Origin: Acidocella sp.
GTDB taxonomy: Bacteria > Pseudomonadota > Alphaproteobacteria > Acetobacterales > Acetobacteraceae
Direction of reading: 5' to 3'
DNA length: 34,551 bases
Assembly: GCF_013044125.1 (NCBI RefSeq)
Contig: NZ_JABEVC010000201.1
Span: 1 to 34,551, forward strand
Part shown: positions 1,076 to 18,465 of the stretch, in pieces
Layout: every line of letters begins with the position of its first letter
Numbering within the stretch: the first letter of the stretch is position 1
Position numbers and translations under genes: made by a program
The notes under the pieces: model-generated
Database searches by the model: none
The model's input: only the letters and a program-made list of their open reading frames with translations
What the model was told of the DNA's origin: nothing

Positions 1076-1585
1076 ATGTTAACGGCGGTTCTGTCTTCCG
1101 GGGCGGCCCTCCTGCTTGTGTACGCGGCATTGCATGACCTTGCAGCCCGCACCGTTCCCAATTGGCTGCCCCTTGTTTTGCTGGTTTTCGGCCTGTGCGC
1201 GCGGGTAGCGGATCATAACCTTTTCAGCGGGCTGGCTGTTGCCGCTGCGGCCTTTTCCGTGCTGTTCATTGTCTGGCTGCTGGGCGCCATGGGCGGCGGG
1301 GATGTAAAGCTTTGGGCCGCCACTGTGCTGCTTATTCCACCTCTGCTGCAGCCAGAGCTCGCCTTTTTTCTCCATGTTTTCATTTTTGGCGGCATTCTGG
1401 CGGTAGTTTATCTGGCGCTTGGTTTTGTCGTCCACAAGCCGCGGGGCCGTAAGGCCGGCGGTCTGGTTTGGCGGCTGCTGCGGGCGGAGGCCTGGCGGAT
1501 TAGCCGGCGCGCGCCCCTGCCTTATGCCTGCGCCATTGCCGGCGGTGCCATCGCAACCCTTTTGCCTCTTTCTTTTCAGCGTTAG
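1076..1585 (+). CDS. cpaA: CpaA/TadV prepilin peptidase (A24 family)
   Basis: A 169-residue inner-membrane aspartic peptidase that removes the leader of Flp-type prepilins. Both catalytic aspartates of the A24 family are present: D21 in the HDLAARTVPNWL segment and D76 in the GGGDVKL (GxGD) motif. About five to six hydrophobic segments are seen. The length matches stand-alone CpaA/TadV enzymes, which lack the methylase domain of PilD. An AGGGG ribosome site precedes the ATG. It is the first gene of the assembly operon; cpaB starts 7 bases after its stop. Confidence 0.93.
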   Translation: MLTAVLSSGAALLLVYAALHDLAARTVPNWLPLVLLVFGLCARVADHNLFSGLAVAAAAFSVLFIVWLLGAMGGGDVKLWAATVLLIPPLLQPELAFFLHVFIFGGILAVVYLALGFVVHKPRGRKAGGLVWRLLRAEAWRISRRAPLPYACAIAGGAIATLLPLSFQR

Positions 1586-1592
1586 GTAGAAC

Positions 1593-2432
1593 ATGATTTT
1601 TCGTCTCGGCGTATTCGGGGTTCTGGTCGCAGCGCTGATCGCGGTCGCGCTCTTCGGTTTCTCCATTCTCAAGCAGTCGAAGCAGCAGCAAGTTGTGGCG
1701 CCGCCGGCGACTGAGCAAATCCTGGTCGCCTCCGCGCAGTTGCAGGGGGGCAGTCTTTTGCAGCCGGCGGACATTACCGCCGGCGCTGTGGCGGCCGGCA
1801 GTGCGCCGGCCGGGTCTGAGCAGGATACGCCGCAGAATCGTTCGGCGCTGATCGGCGCGATGATCCGCACCTCTCTCACCCCCGGTTCGCCCATTCTGGA
1901 TTCGGAGGTCATTCGTCCTGGCGACCACGGCTTTCTTGCCGCGGTGCTCATGCCCGGGATGCGGGCTGTCACCGTCGGCGTGGACAATATCTCCGGCGCG
2001 AACGGGTTAATCTGGCCGGGTGATAATGTGGATGTGCTGCTCACCCAGACGATCAGCGGCGCCCCCAGCGATAAGAGCATCGCCGCCGAGGTTGTGCTCA
2101 GCGATGTCCGTGTCATCGCAACGGGAGCCGAGCTGGTGAAAACCGCCGAAAACTCCCCGAACGGCACGCCCCCGGCGCAGACCGTCACCCTGGAAGTCAC
2201 CCAGGATCAGGCCGCCCGTATCCTGGTGGCCACCAATCTCGGAAAACTTTCGCTCATCGTGCATTCTTCCCAGGCCCGCGCGGGCGCCGTGCAGGTCAAC
2301 GCGCAGGCGCCGCAGCCTGTCTGGGCGGGAGACGTCTCCCCGGCTCTGGCCAACCAGCATCCTTCCGTGCCGCAGGTTTCAACCGTCAAGGTATTTCAGG
2401 GCACCCCCAACGAACAGGATTACAGCTTCTGA
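1593..2432 (+). CDS. cpaB: Tad pilus assembly protein CpaB/RcpC
   Basis: A 279-residue periplasmic protein anchored by one N-terminal helix (residues 5-25). A SAF domain follows (about 42-118), then the RcpC/CpaB core beginning MRAVTVGVDN at 123 and including the WPGDNVDVLL stretch (141-150) typical of the family. RcpC is thought to modify or stabilise the secretin pore, and SAF domains suggest peptidoglycan or carbohydrate contact. Length is normal. The stop overlaps the cpaC start (TGATG), so the two are probably translationally coupled. Confidence 0.93.
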   Translation: MIFRLGVFGVLVAALIAVALFGFSILKQSKQQQVVAPPATEQILVASAQLQGGSLLQPADITAGAVAAGSAPAGSEQDTPQNRSALIGAMIRTSLTPGSPILDSEVIRPGDHGFLAAVLMPGMRAVTVGVDNISGANGLIWPGDNVDVLLTQTISGAPSDKSIAAEVVLSDVRVIATGAELVKTAENSPNGTPPAQTVTLEVTQDQAARILVATNLGKLSLIVHSSQARAGAVQVNAQAPQPVWAGDVSPALANQHPSVPQVSTVKVFQGTPNEQDYSF

Positions 2433-3877
2433 TGACCGCCCCATCAAAACGCGGATATTTCCCGCTTGTTCTCGCCGCTGCATTTGGCTGCGTTCCTGTC
2501 CTGGCGCTGGCGCAGGAACAGCCTCAACCGCTTGACGGTTCAGCCTCCGCCGGCGTTTCGCCGCCGGTTGTCGCCACGGGCCCGGCCTTCTTCGGCGGCA
2601 TTTCCGTTGCCAAGGGCAGCGGCGAGCTGGTCAAGCTGCCGCATCCGGTCGCGAACATCTTCGCCGCGGACCCCAGTATCATCGAGGTGCGGCCAGCCAG
2701 CCCTAACACCATGTTTGTGTTCGGCAAAAGCATGGGCGAGACGACCATCGTCACGACCGACTCGGCCGGCAACACCATTGCCCAATATTCAGTCTCGGTC
2801 CGTCCATCGTCCTTCGTGAATGACCGTCTGCGCTCCCAGGCCAGAAAGTCCGCCCCCGGCAACAGCGTCACGGCTGAGGCCGAGCCTGGCGGCGTGGTCG
2901 TGCGCGGCACGGTGCGCACGCCAGAGCAGGCGGCCAATGTCATCGAACAGGCGAAGCTGATCTCCCCCACCGGCACGGTGGTTAATAATCTGCAGGTGCA
3001 GGAGCCGATCCAGGTCGAGCTGAAGGTCCGCATCGCCTCCATGTCGCGCAACATCACGCGTGAACTCGGGATCAACTGGAGCGCGGTTGCAACCAAAGGC
3101 TTCAATATCGGCAAATTCGCGCTCACCGGCTCAACAGCCTCTGCCGCTGCCTCGCTTTCCACCGCCACCCAGGGCGGGGTAGGCGTCACCTTCCCCGGCG
3201 GGAATTTCTCAGGCATCATCGACGCTCTGGCCACCGACAATTTGGCGCATATCCTGGCCGAGCCAACTTTAACAACGTTGAGCGGCACGCAGGCCAGTTT
3301 CCAGGTCGGCGGACAATTTCCCATCCCGGTCAGCTCAGGAAACGGTGTGGTAACGGTCAGTTTCAAGAATTACGGCGTTCTGCTCACCTTCGTCCCGACG
3401 GTGTTGTCCGATGGCCGGATCTCGCTGCAGGTGGCGCCGCAGCTCAGCGAGCTGAACTCAGCCAATTCATCGAGTGTTTCGACCGGCGCCACAGGCGGCC
3501 AGGTGTTCAACGTGCCCTCGCTCAATGTCACCGCGGCCTCCAGTACCGTCATTTTGGGCAGCGGCCAGGGCATGGCCATCGCCGGATTGCTGGAGGATCA
3601 GTCCAACCAGGTCGATAACGGCGTGCCGGGGCTGAGCGAAATCCCGATCGTCGGCGCCCTCTTCCGGGGCGATGCCTTTCAGCGCCAGCAGCAGGAAGTT
3701 GTGATCACGGTCACCCCCTATCTGGTCAACCCGGTCAACAACCCCGGCGCCCTGGCATCACCCGATGATGGCTGGACGCCGCCGAACGATCTGCAGCGTA
3801 TCCTGCTGCTGCGCGATAACGGCACCAACACAGCCAGCACCACCATTCCAGGCGATGCCGGGTTCATTGTTCAGTGA
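2432..3877 (+). CDS. cpaC: Tad pilus secretin CpaC/RcpA
   Basis: A 481-residue outer-membrane secretin through which the pilus leaves the cell. Residues 1-28 form a signal peptide with a likely cleavage site near ALAQ. An N-terminal pilus/secretin domain (about 53-125) is followed by a BON-like segment (about 130-190) and the secretin barrel domain (about 250-435), which ends in the conserved VPGLSEIPIVGALFRG stretch (418-433). Length is usual for CpaC. It starts inside the stop of cpaB and its own stop overlaps the next gene, so it sits in a coupled translation block. Confidence 0.94.
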   Translation: MTAPSKRGYFPLVLAAAFGCVPVLALAQEQPQPLDGSASAGVSPPVVATGPAFFGGISVAKGSGELVKLPHPVANIFAADPSIIEVRPASPNTMFVFGKSMGETTIVTTDSAGNTIAQYSVSVRPSSFVNDRLRSQARKSAPGNSVTAEAEPGGVVVRGTVRTPEQAANVIEQAKLISPTGTVVNNLQVQEPIQVELKVRIASMSRNITRELGINWSAVATKGFNIGKFALTGSTASAAASLSTATQGGVGVTFPGGNFSGIIDALATDNLAHILAEPTLTTLSGTQASFQVGGQFPIPVSSGNGVVTVSFKNYGVLLTFVPTVLSDGRISLQVAPQLSELNSANSSSVSTGATGGQVFNVPSLNVTAASSTVILGSGQGMAIAGLLEDQSNQVDNGVPGLSEIPIVGALFRGDAFQRQQQEVVITVTPYLVNPVNNPGALASPDDGWTPPNDLQRILLLRDNGTNTASTTIPGDAGFIVQ

Positions 3878-4194
3878 AAGGATCATTCCCCTTGCGCTCG
3901 CTGGCTTTTTTCTCATTTTGCGTAATGCTGCTCAGCCTGAGCGGCTGTGTGCTGGATCCATATCAGCGGCAGGGAACCTGGTCGGCGACAGGCGCCAGCA
4001 GGGAGGATATTGCCCAGCAGGTGGCCGATCCGGCGGATCTGATCAGCGGCAAGTCGGAGCCGTATTCCAATGGGGTGGCCGCTGCCGCCGGTGTTGACAA
4101 GGCGCTCGGCGCCAACGGCGCGGGCACGGCGGCAGGTCTGCAGACGCCGGTCAACCCGACCTCCGTTTTCACCAGCACGACGGTGGGTAACTAA
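3874..4194 (+). CDS. Small Tad-locus lipoprotein in the cpaD position
   Basis: A 106-residue predicted lipoprotein. A hydrophobic leader ends in the lipobox LSGC with C25 as the lipidated residue, followed by VLDPYQRQGTW. The GTG start is chosen because it overlaps the cpaC stop (GTGA), as elsewhere in the operon. It lies between cpaC and cpaE, where cpaD usually sits, but it is about half the usual CpaD length and I cannot see the CpaD core. It may be a reduced CpaD or a secretin pilotin-like lipoprotein; both are inference from position and lipobox. The C-terminal half is Ala/Gly/Thr-rich and looks disordered. Confidence 0.75.
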   Translation: MKGSFPLRSLAFFSFCVMLLSLSGCVLDPYQRQGTWSATGASREDIAQQVADPADLISGKSEPYSNGVAAAAGVDKALGANGAGTAAGLQTPVNPTSVFTSTTVGN

Positions 4195-4240
4195 AAATGC
4201 CTGACTTCACGGCAAAATTTTCTAACTTGAGGACGGCTGC

Positions 4241-5503
4241 ATGAACCAACAAGGTCCACGCGCAACCAGCCCGGACGGCGGGATGAGCAATCGGCCAGAC
4301 CGTCTGACCGTGCTCGCATTTCTGGGAGATCCGGCAACCGAACAAGTGTTGCGTGATGGCTTGGGCGACCAGGTTGCCAACGGCATGGACATACGGCGCG
4401 GCACGATCCGCACCGCCATCGCCGCGATGGCCAAGCTACAGACCCCGGAAGTGCTGATTGTTGATATCGCCGGCGAGGAGCAGCCGCTGCACGCGCTGGG
4501 CGAACTCTCCGACGTGGTGGAGCCCGGCGTGCGCGTGCTGGTCATCGGCGATACCGATGATGTCGATTTCTACCGCCATATCACCCGCGGCATGGGGGTG
4601 ATGGAGTACATCTTCAAACCCATCACGCGTGAGGCTGTGGCACGGTATTTCGCGCCGCTGGTCACCCGCAAAACCGTTGGCCAGGACGCCACCCGCGGCG
4701 GGCGCGTTATCGCTGTCATGGGTGCTCGCGGCGGCGTGGGCAGCACCACCATCGCCGGCAATCTCGCCTGGCTGCTGGGGGTCATCGCCAAGCGGCACAC
4801 GGTATTCCTGGAGTCAGATCTGCACATGGGTTCGGGCGCGCTGCTGCTGGGCGCCAAAACCGGCCCCGGCCTGCGCATGGCGCTGGAAACGCCGGACCGT
4901 ATCGACCCGCTGTTCGTCGAGCGCGCGGCCCAGCCGGTGGCGGAGCGCCTGCAGGTTCTCGCCTCGGAAGAGAAACTCAACGATCCGCTGAGCTATGCCC
5001 CAGGCGCCGCACGCCGGTTGATCGAAACGCTGCGTGTCCGTTATAATTTCATCATCCTGGACGTGCCGTTTCTGCCCATGCCGTGCAACCGGGAACTCAT
5101 CGAATATGCCCACCACCGCGTGATCGTCATGGACCCATCGCTGGCCAGCGTGCGCGACACATTGCGCCTGCTCGGCCTGCCCAACGGGCCGTGGCAGCCG
5201 CAAAGCCCCACCATTGTGCTCAACCGCCAGGGGCGTCCCGGCGGTCTCACCCGCAAGCAGATCGAGGATGCGCTCAAGGTGAAGATCGATGTCGTGATCC
5301 CCGACATCCCCAAGCAGCTGAACGAGAGCGCCAGCTTCGGCGACCCGGCGGTGGCAAGCTCCGGCCCGTTCCGCCAGGCGATCATAGATCTCTCGCGTGA
5401 AATCGGTTTCGTCGGTGGCCGGGAGGATGGCGGAGCCGTGGGCTCCGCCGCATCCGGCGGGGTAACGGGGCTGTTCAAAATGTTCGGTCTGCAAAAAGGT
5501 TAA
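4241..5503 (+). CDS. cpaE: CpaE/TadZ-type pilus positioning ATPase
   Basis: A 420-residue cytoplasmic protein with a receiver-like N-terminal domain (about 22-135, with D75 in VLIVDIAG where a receiver aspartate would lie) and a MinD/ParA-type ATPase domain (about 153-390). The P-loop GARGGVGSTT (161-170) has no lysine in the final GK position, as is usual in CpaE proteins, so ATP hydrolysis may be weak or absent. CpaE/TadZ proteins place the pilus machine at a cell pole. A GAGGA ribosome site precedes the ATG. The 46-base gap before it is the largest in the cpaA-tadD block. Confidence 0.93.
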   Translation: MNQQGPRATSPDGGMSNRPDRLTVLAFLGDPATEQVLRDGLGDQVANGMDIRRGTIRTAIAAMAKLQTPEVLIVDIAGEEQPLHALGELSDVVEPGVRVLVIGDTDDVDFYRHITRGMGVMEYIFKPITREAVARYFAPLVTRKTVGQDATRGGRVIAVMGARGGVGSTTIAGNLAWLLGVIAKRHTVFLESDLHMGSGALLLGAKTGPGLRMALETPDRIDPLFVERAAQPVAERLQVLASEEKLNDPLSYAPGAARRLIETLRVRYNFIILDVPFLPMPCNRELIEYAHHRVIVMDPSLASVRDTLRLLGLPNGPWQPQSPTIVLNRQGRPGGLTRKQIEDALKVKIDVVIPDIPKQLNESASFGDPAVASSGPFRQAIIDLSREIGFVGGREDGGAVGSAASGGVTGLFKMFGLQKG

Positions 5504-5507
5504 GACG

Positions 5508-6956
5508 ATGACTGACGGCAATATCCCTGTTTTCGGGCGGCGCCGGAACGAGCAACCGGTTCCTCCACCTGCTGTGCAGGTGTTTTCCTCCGCACCTCAG
5601 AGTATTCCAGCACTCCCGGTCTCCGCGCGCACAACCGCCGATGCGGCGGCCAGCGCCACCATCGCCGCCGCCGCCGCGCATGCCGCGGCCATCACCACCC
5701 GGGCGGATATTGCCGAACTGCGCGCGCTTTGCCTCGCCCGTATGGATGCCACCGCCGTCGCCAGCCTGCATCCTGATCGTCTGCTCATCGAGGTGGAACG
5801 GCTGATCTCCGATCTGGCAACCGAAAAGCGTGTTCAGCTGAATGGCCGCGAGCAGCGCAGCCTGGCGACCGAGCTGGTTGACGACATGCTGGGCCTCGGC
5901 CCGCTGGAGCCGCTGCTGCTGGATGATACGATCAACGACATCATGGTCAACGGCCCGGACCACACGTTTGTGGAGCGCGGCGGCAAGTTGATCCAGGTGC
6001 CGGTGCGCTTTCGCGACTGGACTCACCTCACCAACGTCTGCCAGCGCATCGCCGCCTCCGTTGGCCGACGTGTCGATGAAGCAAGCCCGATGTGCGATGC
6101 ACGCTTGAAGGACGGCTCACGCGTCAACATCATCCTCCCGCCGCTGGCGATTGACGGCCCCTCGCTCTCCATCCGTAAATTCTCTAAGAAACCGATCGAT
6201 TTTGACAAGCTGATCCAATACGGCTCGCTCACGCCGCCGATCGCGCGCATTCTGGAAATCGCGGCCCGCACAAGGCTGAATATCATCGTCTCCGGCGGCA
6301 CCGGCTCGGGCAAGACCACGATGATGAACGCGATGAGCCGCTTCATCGACCCTGCCGAGCGTGTCGTCACGGTGGAAGACGCCGCCGAGCTGCAACTGCA
6401 GCAGCCGCATGTGGTGCGCCTGGAAACCCGCCCGGCCAGCCTGGAGGGCAAGGGCGAGGTCAACGCCCGCGATCTCGTGCGTAACGCGCTGCGTATGCGG
6501 CCGGACCGCATCATCATCGGTGAGGTCCGCGGCGCCGAGGCGTTTGACATGTTGCAGGCCATGAACACCGGCCATGATGGCTCGATGTCCACCATTCACG
6601 CCAACAACACGCGCGATGCGCTGGCGCGTATCGAGAACATGGTCCAGATGTCGAGCATGGGCCTCTCGCCGAAGGCCATCCGCACGCAGGTGGTCGCCGC
6701 GGTGAATATCATCGTGCAGGTGGAGCGCCAGCGCGACGGCGGCCGGCGCGTCACCCAGGTCACTGAAATCGCGGGCATTGAAGGTGAGACCCAGTTGCTG
6801 AACGACATCTTCAAGTTTGAAGTCACGGGCGAGACAGCCACCGGGAAGCTGACCGGCCGCTACGAGGTAAGCCGCATCCGTTCGGCCTTTCATGAACGGC
6901 TGCAATATTTCGGTCTCGACCGTTCATGGATGGCCGCGTTGGATGACATCGGATGA
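5508..6956 (+). CDS. cpaF: CpaF/TadA pilus assembly ATPase
   Basis: A 482-residue secretion ATPase of the type II/IV superfamily that drives Flp pilus assembly from the cytoplasmic side of the inner membrane. Visible motifs are the Walker A GGTGSGKT (263-270), the Walker B region RIIIGEVRG (334-342) and the His box GHDGSMSTIHAN (355-366). The N-terminal 65 residues are Ala/Pro-rich and low complexity, followed by the usual N-terminal domain of CpaF. It starts 4 bases after cpaE and its stop overlaps tadB (ATGA). Confidence 0.95.
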   Translation: MTDGNIPVFGRRRNEQPVPPPAVQVFSSAPQSIPALPVSARTTADAAASATIAAAAAHAAAITTRADIAELRALCLARMDATAVASLHPDRLLIEVERLISDLATEKRVQLNGREQRSLATELVDDMLGLGPLEPLLLDDTINDIMVNGPDHTFVERGGKLIQVPVRFRDWTHLTNVCQRIAASVGRRVDEASPMCDARLKDGSRVNIILPPLAIDGPSLSIRKFSKKPIDFDKLIQYGSLTPPIARILEIAARTRLNIIVSGGTGSGKTTMMNAMSRFIDPAERVVTVEDAAELQLQQPHVVRLETRPASLEGKGEVNARDLVRNALRMRPDRIIIGEVRGAEAFDMLQAMNTGHDGSMSTIHANNTRDALARIENMVQMSSMGLSPKAIRTQVVAAVNIIVQVERQRDGGRRVTQVTEIAGIEGETQLLNDIFKFEVTGETATGKLTGRYEVSRIRSAFHERLQYFGLDRSWMAALDDIG

Positions 6957-7942
6957 TCGTTAACGAACTCATCTTCCTCTTCGCGGTCATCCTCGTCCTG
7001 CTGGTTGTGGCCGGAGGTCTGCTCATCTCCATCCTGCGCAGCTATGACAGGCAGCAAAAGCTCAAACTGCGCATGCAGGATGTCATCGCGCCGGGGGACC
7101 GCCCGCTCAAACCCGTGGCGGAAGAGATCTCGCTCACCCACAAGGTCTCGAAAACCCAGGAATTCAAGGAAAAAGCCGCCGGATTTATCGGCGTCGATCT
7201 GCGCCAGGCGGAAACCTACCCGATCAAATGGTGGCTGGTTCCACCGCTCACCCTGGCCCTTACCATGGTCGTCGTGGCGATGGCCGTGCATCCCCTGGGC
7301 GATTACAAAATTCTCGTTTTCCTGCTTATCTATGTCTGTTCGCCGTTCATCTGGCTGCTGCTAACGAAATTCGTCTTCAACTGGTTCACCAACCGGCGGA
7401 ACGCCAAGCTGCTGGAGCAATTTCCTGATGCGCTCAGCACCATCGTCCGTTGCGTGCGCGTCGGCATTCCCATGGGTGAAGCCCTGCGCACGGTCGCACG
7501 TGACGCGCAGGAACCGACCAAGACCGAGTTTGACATTCTGGCGGACAAAGTCTCCATCGGCATCCCGCTGGATGTCGCCTTGCGGGAGTTGTCGCAGCGC
7601 ATCAAGCTCACCGAGTACCAGTTTTTTGCAACGGCGCTCACACTCCAGGCTCGCTCCGGCGGCGGCATCACGCAGACGCTGGAAACCCTGGCCGATGTCA
7701 TCCGCAAGCGCGTCGGGCTGAAGGCGCGCGGCTATGCCCTTACCGCGGAGGCCCGCACCAGCGCGCTGATCCTCTCGGTTTTGCCGTTCATCGCCGGCAC
7801 CGCGATTTTCGTGATGCAGGGGCAGTATATTACCATGCTGTTCACCACGAAAAGCGGTGAATCCGTACTGGGCATCGCCATCCTGCTGATGATGATCGGC
7901 ATGGGGACCATTCAGTACATGATCAGCAACGTTCTGAAGTAG
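6953..7942 (+). CDS. tadB: Tad inner-membrane platform protein TadB
   Basis: A 329-residue polytopic membrane protein of the type II secretion F family. It has an N-terminal transmembrane helix (about 5-27), two helices near 90-140, a cytoplasmic T2SSF domain (about 160-290) and C-terminal helices. With TadC it forms the platform that the CpaF ATPase acts on. The ATG overlaps the cpaF stop, and tadC follows after 9 bases. Confidence 0.93.
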   Translation: MIVNELIFLFAVILVLLVVAGGLLISILRSYDRQQKLKLRMQDVIAPGDRPLKPVAEEISLTHKVSKTQEFKEKAAGFIGVDLRQAETYPIKWWLVPPLTLALTMVVVAMAVHPLGDYKILVFLLIYVCSPFIWLLLTKFVFNWFTNRRNAKLLEQFPDALSTIVRCVRVGIPMGEALRTVARDAQEPTKTEFDILADKVSIGIPLDVALRELSQRIKLTEYQFFATALTLQARSGGGITQTLETLADVIRKRVGLKARGYALTAEARTSALILSVLPFIAGTAIFVMQGQYITMLFTTKSGESVLGIAILLMMIGMGTIQYMISNVLK

Positions 7943-7951
7943 CCAGGTATC

Positions 7952-8893
7952 ATGTCCCAAACCTATATCTTCCTGGCAGTCGTTTTCCTGTTCCTTCTCG
8001 TGGTGGCGGCAGGCTTCTACCTCGTCAACGAGCTGGCGCGCTCCGGGCGTCTCGCCAGCCGTATCGAGTTCGTCAAATCCGGCGGCCAGGTGCAACAACC
8101 AACCATACCCCGGCCAGACGGCGCCCTGCTCCTGCGGCTGCTCTCCGCCTTCGGGATGCGGATCGCGCGTAGTGGCCTGCTTTCGGGCAAAACCCTGGCC
8201 GAGATGACCGCGACTCTGGAAGGCGCCGGGTTCCGCGGCGGCCGCGGGCTGGGTCTGTTCATCGGCGCCAAAATTCTGCTGGGCCTGCTTCTGCCGGTCA
8301 TCGCCTTTTTCGCCTTTCGCAATTTCGGCAGCGGCATGTTGTGGCTGGTGGTCAAACTCGGCGGCGCCGCCATTTTTGGCCTGCTTCTGCCGGAGACCAT
8401 CGCCACCAACATCCGCAAAAGGCATCTGGTGCAGGTTGAAGCCGGCGTTGCTGATGCGCTGGACATGATGGTGATCTGTGCCGATGCCGGTCTCGCCCTG
8501 GAAGCCGGGCTGGCGCGTGTGGCGCAGGAGATGGAGGGGCTTAATTCCGCCCTCTCGAAAGAGCTGACGCAGACATCGCGCGAACTTCAGATCGGTTCGG
8601 ACATGCGCATGGCGATGGAATCGCTCGGTCAGCGCACCGGGCTGGATCCGTTGAAGCGGCTGTCCACCACGTTGATCCAATCCCTGCATTACGGCACCCC
8701 GCTCACCCAGGCGCTACGCACTCTCTCGGGAGAATTGCGCCAGGAGGCCCTCGTCAAGTTCGAGGAGCGTGCCGGCCGCCTGCCGACCCTGATGACCATT
8801 CCGATGATTCTTTTCATCCTGCCCTGCGTCTTCCTGATCGTGGCTGGGCCGGCGATCATCAATGTCTTGGCCACCCTCCATGGACAAAAGTAG
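7952..8893 (+). CDS. tadC: Tad inner-membrane platform protein TadC
   Basis: A 313-residue T2SSF-family membrane protein, the partner of TadB. One N-terminal helix (about 4-24), a helical pair near 100-145, the T2SSF domain (about 160-285, including the CADAGLALEAGLARVAQE stretch typical of the family) and a C-terminal helix are visible. Length and position after tadB are standard. Confidence 0.93.
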   Translation: MSQTYIFLAVVFLFLLVVAAGFYLVNELARSGRLASRIEFVKSGGQVQQPTIPRPDGALLLRLLSAFGMRIARSGLLSGKTLAEMTATLEGAGFRGGRGLGLFIGAKILLGLLLPVIAFFAFRNFGSGMLWLVVKLGGAAIFGLLLPETIATNIRKRHLVQVEAGVADALDMMVICADAGLALEAGLARVAQEMEGLNSALSKELTQTSRELQIGSDMRMAMESLGQRTGLDPLKRLSTTLIQSLHYGTPLTQALRTLSGELRQEALVKFEERAGRLPTLMTIPMILFILPCVFLIVAGPAIINVLATLHGQK

Positions 8894-8901
8894 AGTAAAC
8901 C

Positions 8902-10185
8902 ATGAAAAATTTTAAGCGCGCCGCATTTTCCGAGATAGCCAGGTTCAACCGCGACGCCCTGAAACGCTCAGGCGCCTTCTTGCTGGTGCCGGTTCTGCTG
9001 CTGGCGTCCTGTGCGCAGCAAAGCCCCGCCAATAACGCCGCCGCCGCCGCCCAGATCGGTACGAATACCCTGAATGTCGCCGATGCCGCGATTGCCGGCG
9101 GCGATCCGAGCATGGCGCTCTCCGTCAGCCAGTCCATCCTCTCAAGCGACCCCGGCAATGTCCAGGCGCTTGAGCATGAGGGCGACGCCTATTACGCGCT
9201 CAACCGCTGTCCCGCCGCCATCGCTGCCTATCAGCTTGCGCTCAAGCGCGACCCCACGGCAAGCGCGGCGGAGACCGGGCAGGGGCGTTGCCTGCTCAAA
9301 ACGGACCCGCGCGCAGCCGAACAGGCCTTCATGCGTGCCATCCAGGATGATCCCGGCAACGCCAACGCCTTGAACGACCTTGGCATCGCGCGTGATTTGC
9401 AGGGTAATTTCGCAGGCGCGGTAGACCCTTACCAGAAAGCGCTGCTGGCCGACCCAAGCCTTACCGCCGTCGAGGTGAATCTCGGCCTGTCGCTGGCTCT
9501 TTCTGGCAACGGCCCGGAGGCCCTGCAGTATCTTGGCCCGCTCGCCACCAGCCAGCAGGCCACGCCGAAAATCCGGCAGGATTATGCCGCGGCTCTGGTC
9601 GCCACGGGGCGGGTGTCCGAAGCCAGGCAAGTGCTGGCGGTTGACCTCCCGCCAGACCAGGTGAACAGGGCCATTGAGGGCTTCACCAACCTGATCCAGC
9701 AGTCGCAATCCGTACCGCCGCCCGCTCCGCCGCCGCCCACTGTGCAGCGCGTACCCGCGCCGGCCCCGATTTCGGCAACGCCGTTGCCGCAGTCCGCCAA
9801 CATCCCCGTAGCCCTGCCGGCCCCGCTGGCCGCCGCCGCGCCGCCGCCTTCGTCCATTGTGGCGCAGATTCACCCCATCTCGTCGCCAACCCCCACCCCC
9901 GCGCCAACACCCGTACAGGCCGCAACCGGCGCCATGGCATCCACCGCCGTGGTGCAACTGGGCGCTCTCAATTCCCGAAATGACGCGCACCGCGCCTGGG
10001 TGCATCTGGCCAACTCCTCCCCGGCGCTTTTTAACGGCCGCTCCCCGCAGATAACCCCCGTTACGCTTGGCAGCAAAACCTTCTACCGCCTGCGTGTCGG
10101 CGGTTTCCAGAGCAAGGTCGCCGCCGCGCATTTCTGCAACGAGCTTCAGGCCGCCGGTCATCGCTGCACCCCGGCGGATTTTTGA
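8902..10185 (+). CDS. tadD: TadD-type TPR lipoprotein with C-terminal SPOR domain
   Basis: A 427-residue predicted lipoprotein. The leader ends in LLASC with C37 as the lipidated residue. Tetratricopeptide-like repeats fill about residues 55-240 (for example the segments around ALEHEGDAYYALNRCPAAI and ALNDLGIARDLQGNFAGAV). A Pro/Ala-rich linker (about 265-345) leads to a C-terminal SPOR-like domain (about 350-427) that starts VVQLGAL and contains FYRLRVGGF. TadD normally ends after the TPR part, near 250 residues. SPOR domains bind glycan strands stripped of peptide stems, so this TadD may be tied to peptidoglycan at septa or poles. It is the last gene of the operon. Confidence 0.88.
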   Translation: MKNFKRAAFSEIARFNRDALKRSGAFLLVPVLLLASCAQQSPANNAAAAAQIGTNTLNVADAAIAGGDPSMALSVSQSILSSDPGNVQALEHEGDAYYALNRCPAAIAAYQLALKRDPTASAAETGQGRCLLKTDPRAAEQAFMRAIQDDPGNANALNDLGIARDLQGNFAGAVDPYQKALLADPSLTAVEVNLGLSLALSGNGPEALQYLGPLATSQQATPKIRQDYAAALVATGRVSEARQVLAVDLPPDQVNRAIEGFTNLIQQSQSVPPPAPPPPTVQRVPAPAPISATPLPQSANIPVALPAPLAAAAPPPSSIVAQIHPISSPTPTPAPTPVQAATGAMASTAVVQLGALNSRNDAHRAWVHLANSSPALFNGRSPQITPVTLGSKTFYRLRVGGFQSKVAAAHFCNELQAAGHRCTPADF

Positions 10186-16606: not shown

Positions 16607-16637
16607 GAGCGATCTTCACAATCGCTCCACGTGGAGC
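16607..16637 (-). repeat. Overlapping palindromes downstream of glmS
   Basis: Two hairpins share bases: GAGCGAT (16607-16613) with 16621-16627, and the perfect 14-base palindrome 16624-16637 (GCTCCACGTGGAGC). They lie just past the glmS end in an AT-rich stretch between convergent trmB and glmS. There is no adjacent T run on the minus strand, so terminator function is uncertain. Confidence 0.45.
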
Positions 16638-16641
16638 GCGC

Positions 16642-18465
16642 CTATTCCACGGTCACCGACTTCGCCAGATTGCGCGGCTGGTCCACATCCGTGCCCTTCA
16701 TCACCGCGACATGATACGCCAGCATCTGCACCGGAATCGCATATAAAATTGGCGCCGCGAACGGGTCGATCTCCGGCAAAATCAGCGTCTCCGCGGCAAT
16801 CCCCTGCAACTTCGCAGCCCCCGCGGCGTCGGAGAATACAATAACCTGCCCCCCCCGCGCCGCGACCTACTGCAGGTTTGAAGCCGTTTTCTCGAACAAC
16901 GGCCCGGAGGGACAAATCGCGATCACCGGCACCGATTTGTCGATCAGCGCGATCGGCCCATGCTTCAACTCACCGGCGGCATAGCCCTCCGCGTGAATAT
17001 AGCTGGTCTCTTTCAGTTTCAGCGCCCCTTCGAGCGCTATGGGGAAACACGCCCCCCGGCCCAGATACAATACATCCGCCGCCTCGGCGATCCGGGGCGC
17101 CAAACGCCTGATCTGCGCCTCATTCGCCAGAATCTCCGCCGCCTTCGCGGGAATTTCCAGCAGCGCATCGCACAGCCGGGCAATCTCGGCATCGGCCAGG
17201 CTGCCGCGCGCGCGCGCCACCGCGAGCGCGAACACCGCCATCACGGTCAATTGCGCCGTGAACGCCTTGGTGCTGGCAACCCCGATTTCCGGCCCGGCCA
17301 TGGTCTCCAGCATGGCATCGGACTCCCGCGCCATGGTGCTCTCCGGTACGTTGAGAATGGTCAGGATTTTCTGCCCCTCGGCGCGCATATAGCGCAACGC
17401 CGCCAGCGTATCCGCCGTCTCGCCGGACTGGCTGACCAGCAATCCCAGCCCGCCTTCAGGCAACGGCGGCGCACGGTAGCGGAACTCTGACGCCACATCG
17501 GCATCCATCGGCAGCCGGCTCAGGCTCTCCAGCCAGAACTTGCCGGTCAGCCCCGCGTAATACGCTGAGCCGCAGGCGCTGAAGGTGATGCGCGGCACGC
17601 CGGCCAGATCAAAGGGCAGGGGTGGCAGCACCGGCATGCGGGTGGCGGCGTCGATCATCCGGTGCAGCACGTCGCCGATCACCACCGGGTGCTCGTGCAA
17701 CTCTTTTTCCATGAAATGCCGGAAATTTCCCTTGCCGATGGCAGCCCCTGTCAGGTTGGTGAGCTTCTTCTCCCGGGTGATCTCCTGGCCGTAGGCATCA
17801 AAAAACACGGCATTTTCGCGCGTCACCACCACCCAGTCGCCATCTTCGAGATACGCGATCTGGCGCGTCAGCGGCGCCAGGGCCAGCGCGTCGGACCCCA
17901 GATACATCTCCTGCGCCCCGTAGCCCACCGCCAGCGGCGCGCCGCGCTGCGCGCCGATGATCAGCTCAGGATGTCCGGCGAAAATCAGCGCCAGCGCATA
18001 CGCCCCCTCCAGCCGCGCGAACGCGGCCTTGGCTGCCTCAACGGGGCTCATCCCCTCCGCCAGCAGCAGATCCAGCAGTTGCGCGACCGTCTCGGTATCA
18101 GTCTCGGAGCAAAAAACCTGGCCCCTGGCTTCAAGTTCGGCGCGCAGCAGCAAATGGTTCTCGATGATGCCGTTATGCACCACCGCGACGCGCGCGGTGC
18201 CGTGCGGATGGGCGTTGGTCTCAGTCGGCGCGCCATGAGTCGCCCAGCGGGTGTGGCCGATGCCGGTGCATCCGGCCAGGGGCTGGCGCTCCAGCGCGGC
18301 GGCCAACTGGGCCAGCTTACCCTCGGCGCGGCGGCGCTCGATCTGTCCGTTCACAAGAGTCGCGATGCCGGCGCTGTCATATCCGCGATATTCCAGCCGG
18401 CGCAGACCATCCAGAAGCAGAGGCGCCGCCGGCGCCAGCCCCACAACACCCACGATTCCGCACAT
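16642..18465 (-). pseudogene. glmS: glmS with one in-frame amber codon (glucosamine-6-phosphate synthase)
   Basis: Read through, this is a 607-position frame for L-glutamine:D-fructose-6-phosphate aminotransferase, which makes glucosamine-6-phosphate for peptidoglycan and LPS. The start MCGIVGVVG puts the glutaminase nucleophile at Cys2; two SIS sugar-isomerase domains follow, and the end PRNLAKSVTVE is the classic GlmS C-terminus with its essential lysine. Codon 533 is TAG (16869-16867) where the family has glutamate (NLQ-E-VAARGG); GAG to TAG is a single change. The 74 codons after it stay in frame and fully GlmS-like. As written, translation would stop at 532 residues and lose the catalytic C-terminal tail. 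AAGGG precedes the ATG. It could be a sequencing error, a recent mutation, suppression, or a copy backed up elsewhere. Confidence 0.9.
16867..16869 (-). other. Internal amber (TAG) codon of glmS
   Basis: The minus strand reads AAC CTG CAG TAG GTC GCG GCG. The frame is unchanged on both sides, so this is a substitution and not an indel. An 8-base C run (16849-16856, G run in the gene) lies 10 bases further downstream in the gene and is itself in the correct frame. Confidence 0.9.

Follow-up and report, generated by a model that had tools for sequence, protein, structure and literature searches.

Natural amber suppression and UAG reassignment are known in several forms, among them suppressor tRNAs with a CUA anticodon, pyrrolysine and UAG recoding. 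In most bacteria studied, loss of GlmS is lethal unless amino sugars are supplied. In-frame stop codons have been reported in bacterial genes under purifying selection; that study counts sequencing errors among the sources of such stops, and limits the accepted ones to those common to at least two genomes (Belinky et al. 2021, PMC7918605). We analyzed a glmS gene on contig NZ_JABEVC010000201.1 of the Acidocella sp. draft assembly GCF_013044125.1, a stretch of 34,551 nucleotides referred to here as the window. The gene is complete apart from a single in-frame TAG at codon 533, and the most likely origin of this codon, by our judgment and with some room for doubt, is an error at base level in the consensus of the draft assembly.

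A glmS frame with one internal stop

Translated from the minus strand, window positions 16642-18465 yield 532 residues, a stop, 74 further residues and a terminal stop, 608 positions in all. Codon 533 is TAG and the 607-codon gene carries no other lesion. Its parts are arranged as follows:

16867..18465, minus strand: glmS codons 1-532 together with the in-frame TAG, encoding the glutaminase domain and the larger share of the isomerase (SIS) part
16867..16869, minus strand: the in-frame TAG, codon 533, which is Glu or Gln in the 108 other aligned loci
16645..16866, minus strand: glmS codons 534-607, open and conserved, encoding a lysine that matches E. coli Lys603 and the last portion of the second SIS domain
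16642..16644, minus strand: the normal terminator of glmS, likewise a TAG

Against the curated glmS model TIGR01135 (cut-off 418.05 bits), the read-through frame scores 752.5 bits over positions 1-607, with the one TAG inside the match, while the 532-residue part alone reaches 657.4 bits and is itself above the cut-off. A Pfam SIS domain spans the stop, and the frame downstream of codon 533 clearly reads as coding. A first-pass annotation, made from the letters and translations of this DNA, had described a minus-strand GlmS of 607 codons with a sole TAG at codon 533, followed by 74 codons that stay in frame and GlmS-like; the translation and the model match bear out both statements.

The intact GlmS of a same-genus relative can be aligned over its full length, C-terminal part included, with the E. 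coli enzyme (PDB 4amv). Counted on this alignment, the stop at codon 533 lies opposite Glu at chain position 536 of 4amv, and the lysine corresponding to the catalytic Lys603 of E. coli is encoded after the stop. The same annotation had placed the catalytic lysine in the tail; a lysine does align there, and its presumed catalytic role is that of its counterpart in the E. coli enzyme. As sequenced, GlmS has an incomplete isomerase part in one chain, and the stop at codon 533 removes the C-terminal lysine.

Among the 5454 possible single substitutions in glmS, 155 (2.8%) make a stop. The stop at codon 533 is a single-base event, and the question of whether more than chance is at work applies only to the open frame that follows it. 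Directly past the end of glmS, a 16-base perfect palindrome occupies window positions 16623-16638, with no run of T after it by eye.

Codon 533 in relatives and the age of the stop

The alignment was given 110 loci, 30 from a same-genus search and the best 80 of 591 from a wider search; 109 of these cover codon 533, the window included, which leaves 108 others for comparison. Glu (GAA/GAG) is encoded in 101 of them and Gln (CAG/CAA) in the other seven, so that Glu, put forward in the first-pass annotation as the family residue here, is the prevailing residue and Gln a minority one. A stop occurs at codon 533 in none of the 108, so the codon is not a conserved recoding site, and among the loci aligned the stop is private to this assembly. 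All 29 same-genus loci fetched (37 same-genus relatives searched) have Glu at this codon; their glmS frames are 605 or 607 residues long and terminate in TAA (13), TGA (10) or TAG (6). Among the best-ranked named loci of the wider search are Rhodopila globiformis (73% identity) and a metagenome-assembled genome of the Acetobacteraceae (75%). The relatives searched yielded no further assembly of the same species, and the wider search may omit very near records. A family-wide glmS search of 397 genomes, 376 of them with a match at E <= 1e-100, showed no internal stop among the matches listed, the row of the window itself not being among these.

Private changes were counted against three close relatives whose glmS is 93.8-94.6% identical at the DNA level. 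Upstream of the stop, 29 codons differ synonymously and 1 nonsynonymously in this genome alone; downstream of it the counts are 2 and 0. Judged by these ratios, glmS gives no sign of decay; the changes in the tail alone are too few to prove selection. A decayed pseudogene was rejected, given the lack of further lesions, private changes free of relaxed selection, and a gene length equal to that of four close relatives. The doubt expressed earlier that this could be an old pseudogene was therefore well placed.

A probable consensus error or a possible fresh nonsense allele

We infer a wrong base at codon 533 rather than a true mutation. On this account, the gene would be an ordinary single-copy alphaproteobacterial glmS whose TAG comes from a miscalled base, a thinly covered base or a local misassembly, and living cells would carry a sense codon at 533 and make a normal GlmS of 607 residues. 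A scan for private substitutions, covering 13,757 columns and three relatives, found 174 substitutions private to this genome, 20 of which are G:C>T:A. Three of these 20, the stop base included, fall within 14 bases:

16869 (the stop base), 16879 and 16882, spanning 16869..16882, minus strand: private G:C-to-T:A triple; the 13,757 columns contain no other triple of this kind within 20 bases

Such a triple arises in 802 of 20,000 label shuffles and in 30 of 5,000 uniform placements. Two of three yardstick genomes had no triple, and the third, with five times the private changes, had two. The test is post hoc, the triple having been noticed first and tested afterwards, and the cluster leans weakly toward an artefact or one multi-base event. 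By way of illustration, an assumed error of 1e-5 per base over 2.68 Mb would leave about 27 errors and, at the 2.8% rate, fewer than one nonsense codon.

Several observations weigh against an error of this kind. The window aligns to one relative over 19,360 bases with just one gap opened, and 33 of the 34 window open reading frames (ORFs) are matched in relatives (one of them partly), with no broken frame besides glmS; the clean remainder of the window makes the general quality look good. The private changes at 16879 and 16882, both synonymous, may be real. The evidence from clustering is itself weak, since 4% of label shuffles reach the triple.

A genuine and very recent nonsense allele is the main alternative, and one we hold possible while favoring the error. 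Here the truncated GlmS would be inactive and the clone or population would be dying out, grown on amino sugars or living on salvaged N-acetylglucosamine (GlcNAc). Such an allele agrees with the intact flanks and with the fact that a single substitution turns the codon of the closest relatives into TAG. Also in its favor, 12 of 331 good-completeness genomes in the family-wide search gave no glmS match at E <= 1e-100, which may reflect either broken assemblies or a true lack of the gene. These points are set against the general lethality of GlmS loss without amino sugars, and against an intact glmM, the next step of the pathway.

The case for such an allele depends in part on salvage. Contig C171 of the assembly starts inside a gene (L150:3-1067) of NagA-MurQ type that is cut by the contig end, and the counterpart of this gene in three same-genus relatives runs in an unbroken frame of 674-690 codons. 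In the relative G032, an ORF of 672 residues (L186:547-2565) scores 227.3 against the nagA model (cut-off 225.65) and 303.9 against that for N-acetylmuramic acid 6-phosphate (MurNAc-6-P) etherase (cut-off 302). The NagA-MurQ ORF is apparently a bifunctional amino-sugar recycling enzyme, and the fusion gene at the start of C171 makes the salvage step from GlcNAc 6-phosphate (GlcNAc-6-P) to glucosamine-6-phosphate plausible. Against this, neither nagB nor the nagA model has a match in the assembly of the window, and a search of it for the N-terminal portion of the NagA-MurQ gene, run without a positive control, came back empty. Salvage from GlcNAc-6-P is plausible, though in this genome it is incomplete. 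Of the options listed in the first-pass annotation, a sequencing or assembly error and a very recent mutation both stand, the former as probable and the latter as possible; its second glmS and amber suppression gained no support from the searches that follow.

Use of TAG and decoding of UAG

The use of TAG was examined in 325,204 bases, made up of the window and 20 stretches picked mostly for contigs bearing a tRNA. This sample holds 175 ORFs of at least 250 codons, picked by length alone and not verified as genes, and the 167 that end inside it terminate in TGA (78), TAA (53) or TAG (36). Among the window genes named by eye, TAG is the terminator of 8 out of 33. One of the genes ending in TAG is glmS itself, where suppression at the terminal codon would append 15 residues to GlmS.

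A first coding-potential scan returned 21 mid-gene stops, many of them opposite-strand shadows by eye, and was set aside. A six-frame coding scan gave 21 in-frame stops with coding-like flanks, five of them in the window, and four of these five are gene boundaries by eye. When 17 candidate stops, that of glmS and 16 from elsewhere in the sample, were run against Pfam, a domain was found across the stop only in glmS; four of the 16 have no Pfam family and are uninformative. Within the 325-kb sample the glmS stop is isolated. For the check on suppression suggested earlier, a count of other genes with an in-frame TAG, the stops tested here offer no second interrupted domain.

Release factor 1 (RF1) is intact, as an ORF of 352 residues above its model cut-off. 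At E <= 0.001 the Rfam tRNA model gave 35 matches; relaxing the limit to E <= 10 added two, both under the threshold of the family. ARAGORN read a CUA anticodon in none of the 35 and recognized no tRNA in the two weak matches, and it found no tRNA missed by Rfam in the 20 sampled stretches. A whole-genome pattern, a CUA loop and then a T loop, had five hits: two in tRNA-Glu and one in tRNA-Arg(TCT), with the motif outside the anticodon place in all three, and two in which ARAGORN detected no tRNA. As a control, the pattern written with each tRNA's own anticodon recovered 31 of the 32 distinct tRNAs. A CUA tRNA was thus not found by Rfam with ARAGORN or by the whole-genome pattern, in an assembly that is gapped and whose tRNA set is incomplete. 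UAG reassignment is unsupported, with RF1 present, TAG a common terminator and one of the 17 tested stops inside a Pfam domain. A transfer-messenger RNA of the permuted kind, as is usual for Alphaproteobacteria, was also located by ARAGORN (L157:13004-13379, tag ANDNNVAFAVAA).

These results bear on functional read-through, in which a suppressor or near-cognate tRNA would decode UAG 533 often enough to supply full-length GlmS. The tail after the stop is without decay, on few changes, and Gln and Glu, the residues of the relatives at this position, each have a codon one base from UAG. The 32 distinct tRNAs include no His, Asn or Ile anticodon, so a tRNA lying in an assembly gap could have been missed. 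With an intact RF1, a terminator spectrum in which TAG is frequent, the terminal TAG of glmS itself, the search that found no CUA tRNA, the absence of a comparable case in the sample and the lack of a stop at this codon in any of the other aligned loci, we regard read-through as improbable. That the base is correct and an RF1-bearing alphaproteobacterium runs its essential GlmS at a level set by amber read-through would be a little less likely again.

Copy number and a hypothetical split enzyme

The assembly comprises 2,678,786 bases in 222 contigs (completeness 99.58, contamination 0.83). Searched over all 222 contigs, the curated glmS model gave one full match and three partial ones under its cut-off, so that no second glmS is present in the assembly. 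The partial matches were each rejected as members of other families by NCBIfam models: PurF (497.1 bits, cut-off 350), a MurNAc-6-P etherase behind an amidohydrolase C-terminus (311.4, cut-off 302) and a KpsF/GutQ-family sugar-phosphate isomerase (274.1, cut-off 203.7). None of these families is known to make glucosamine-6-phosphate from fructose-6-phosphate. A second intact glmS hidden in an assembly gap, which would turn the window copy into an ordinary pseudogene, draws some support from the number of contigs and from at least one gene being cut by a contig end. With a single full match to the model, and with private changes that lack the mark of relaxed selection, we consider it very unlikely.

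Least credible is a split GlmS, in which translation would restart after the stop and the resulting C-terminal fragment would join the first 532 residues in an active enzyme: in-frame start candidates are present after the stop, but the earliest of them, a TTG (codon 553), and the earliest ATG, at codon 581, would give fragments of only 55 and 27 residues, and the SIS domain spanning the stop would be cut.

Two further features of the assembly were observed. In eight contigs (C3, C16, C29, C113, C121, C146, C159 and C168), an end coincides with a tRNA gene or lies no more than about 25 bases from one, and tRNA genes seem to be places where the assembly breaks. The window also holds a Tad/Cpa-type pilus gene cluster at positions 1076-10185, named by eye from its ORFs.

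Comparison with known systems

A draft assembly with one base wrong can give an essential gene the appearance of being broken, and with a stop known from a single assembly, the reads are needed ahead of any explanation. Were the TAG real and the organism able to grow without amino sugars, nature would here offer a clear example of an essential gene expressed by reading through a stop codon. The observations favor a slip in sequencing, or a mutation of very recent date, over a novel reading of the genetic code.

With natural amber suppression and UAG reassignment, the locus shares a TAG within a gene that is expected to be functional. It differs from them in its intact RF1, in a CUA tRNA that was not found, in the common use of TAG as a terminator and in the lack of any other interrupted domain among the stops tested, pyrrolysine genes not having been searched for. 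The in-frame stops of Belinky et al. (PMC7918605) resemble this one in that the glmS stop is isolated in a conserved frame with little nonsynonymous change around it. In contrast to those stops, it occurs in one assembly only and on present data would fail the two-genome criterion. The closest system is GlmS itself (TIGR01135; E. coli, PDB 4amv): the read-through frame exceeds the model cut-off across positions 1-607 and the relative aligns with the E. coli enzyme end to end, while the window gene has TAG at codon 533, opposite the Glu at chain position 536 of 4amv.
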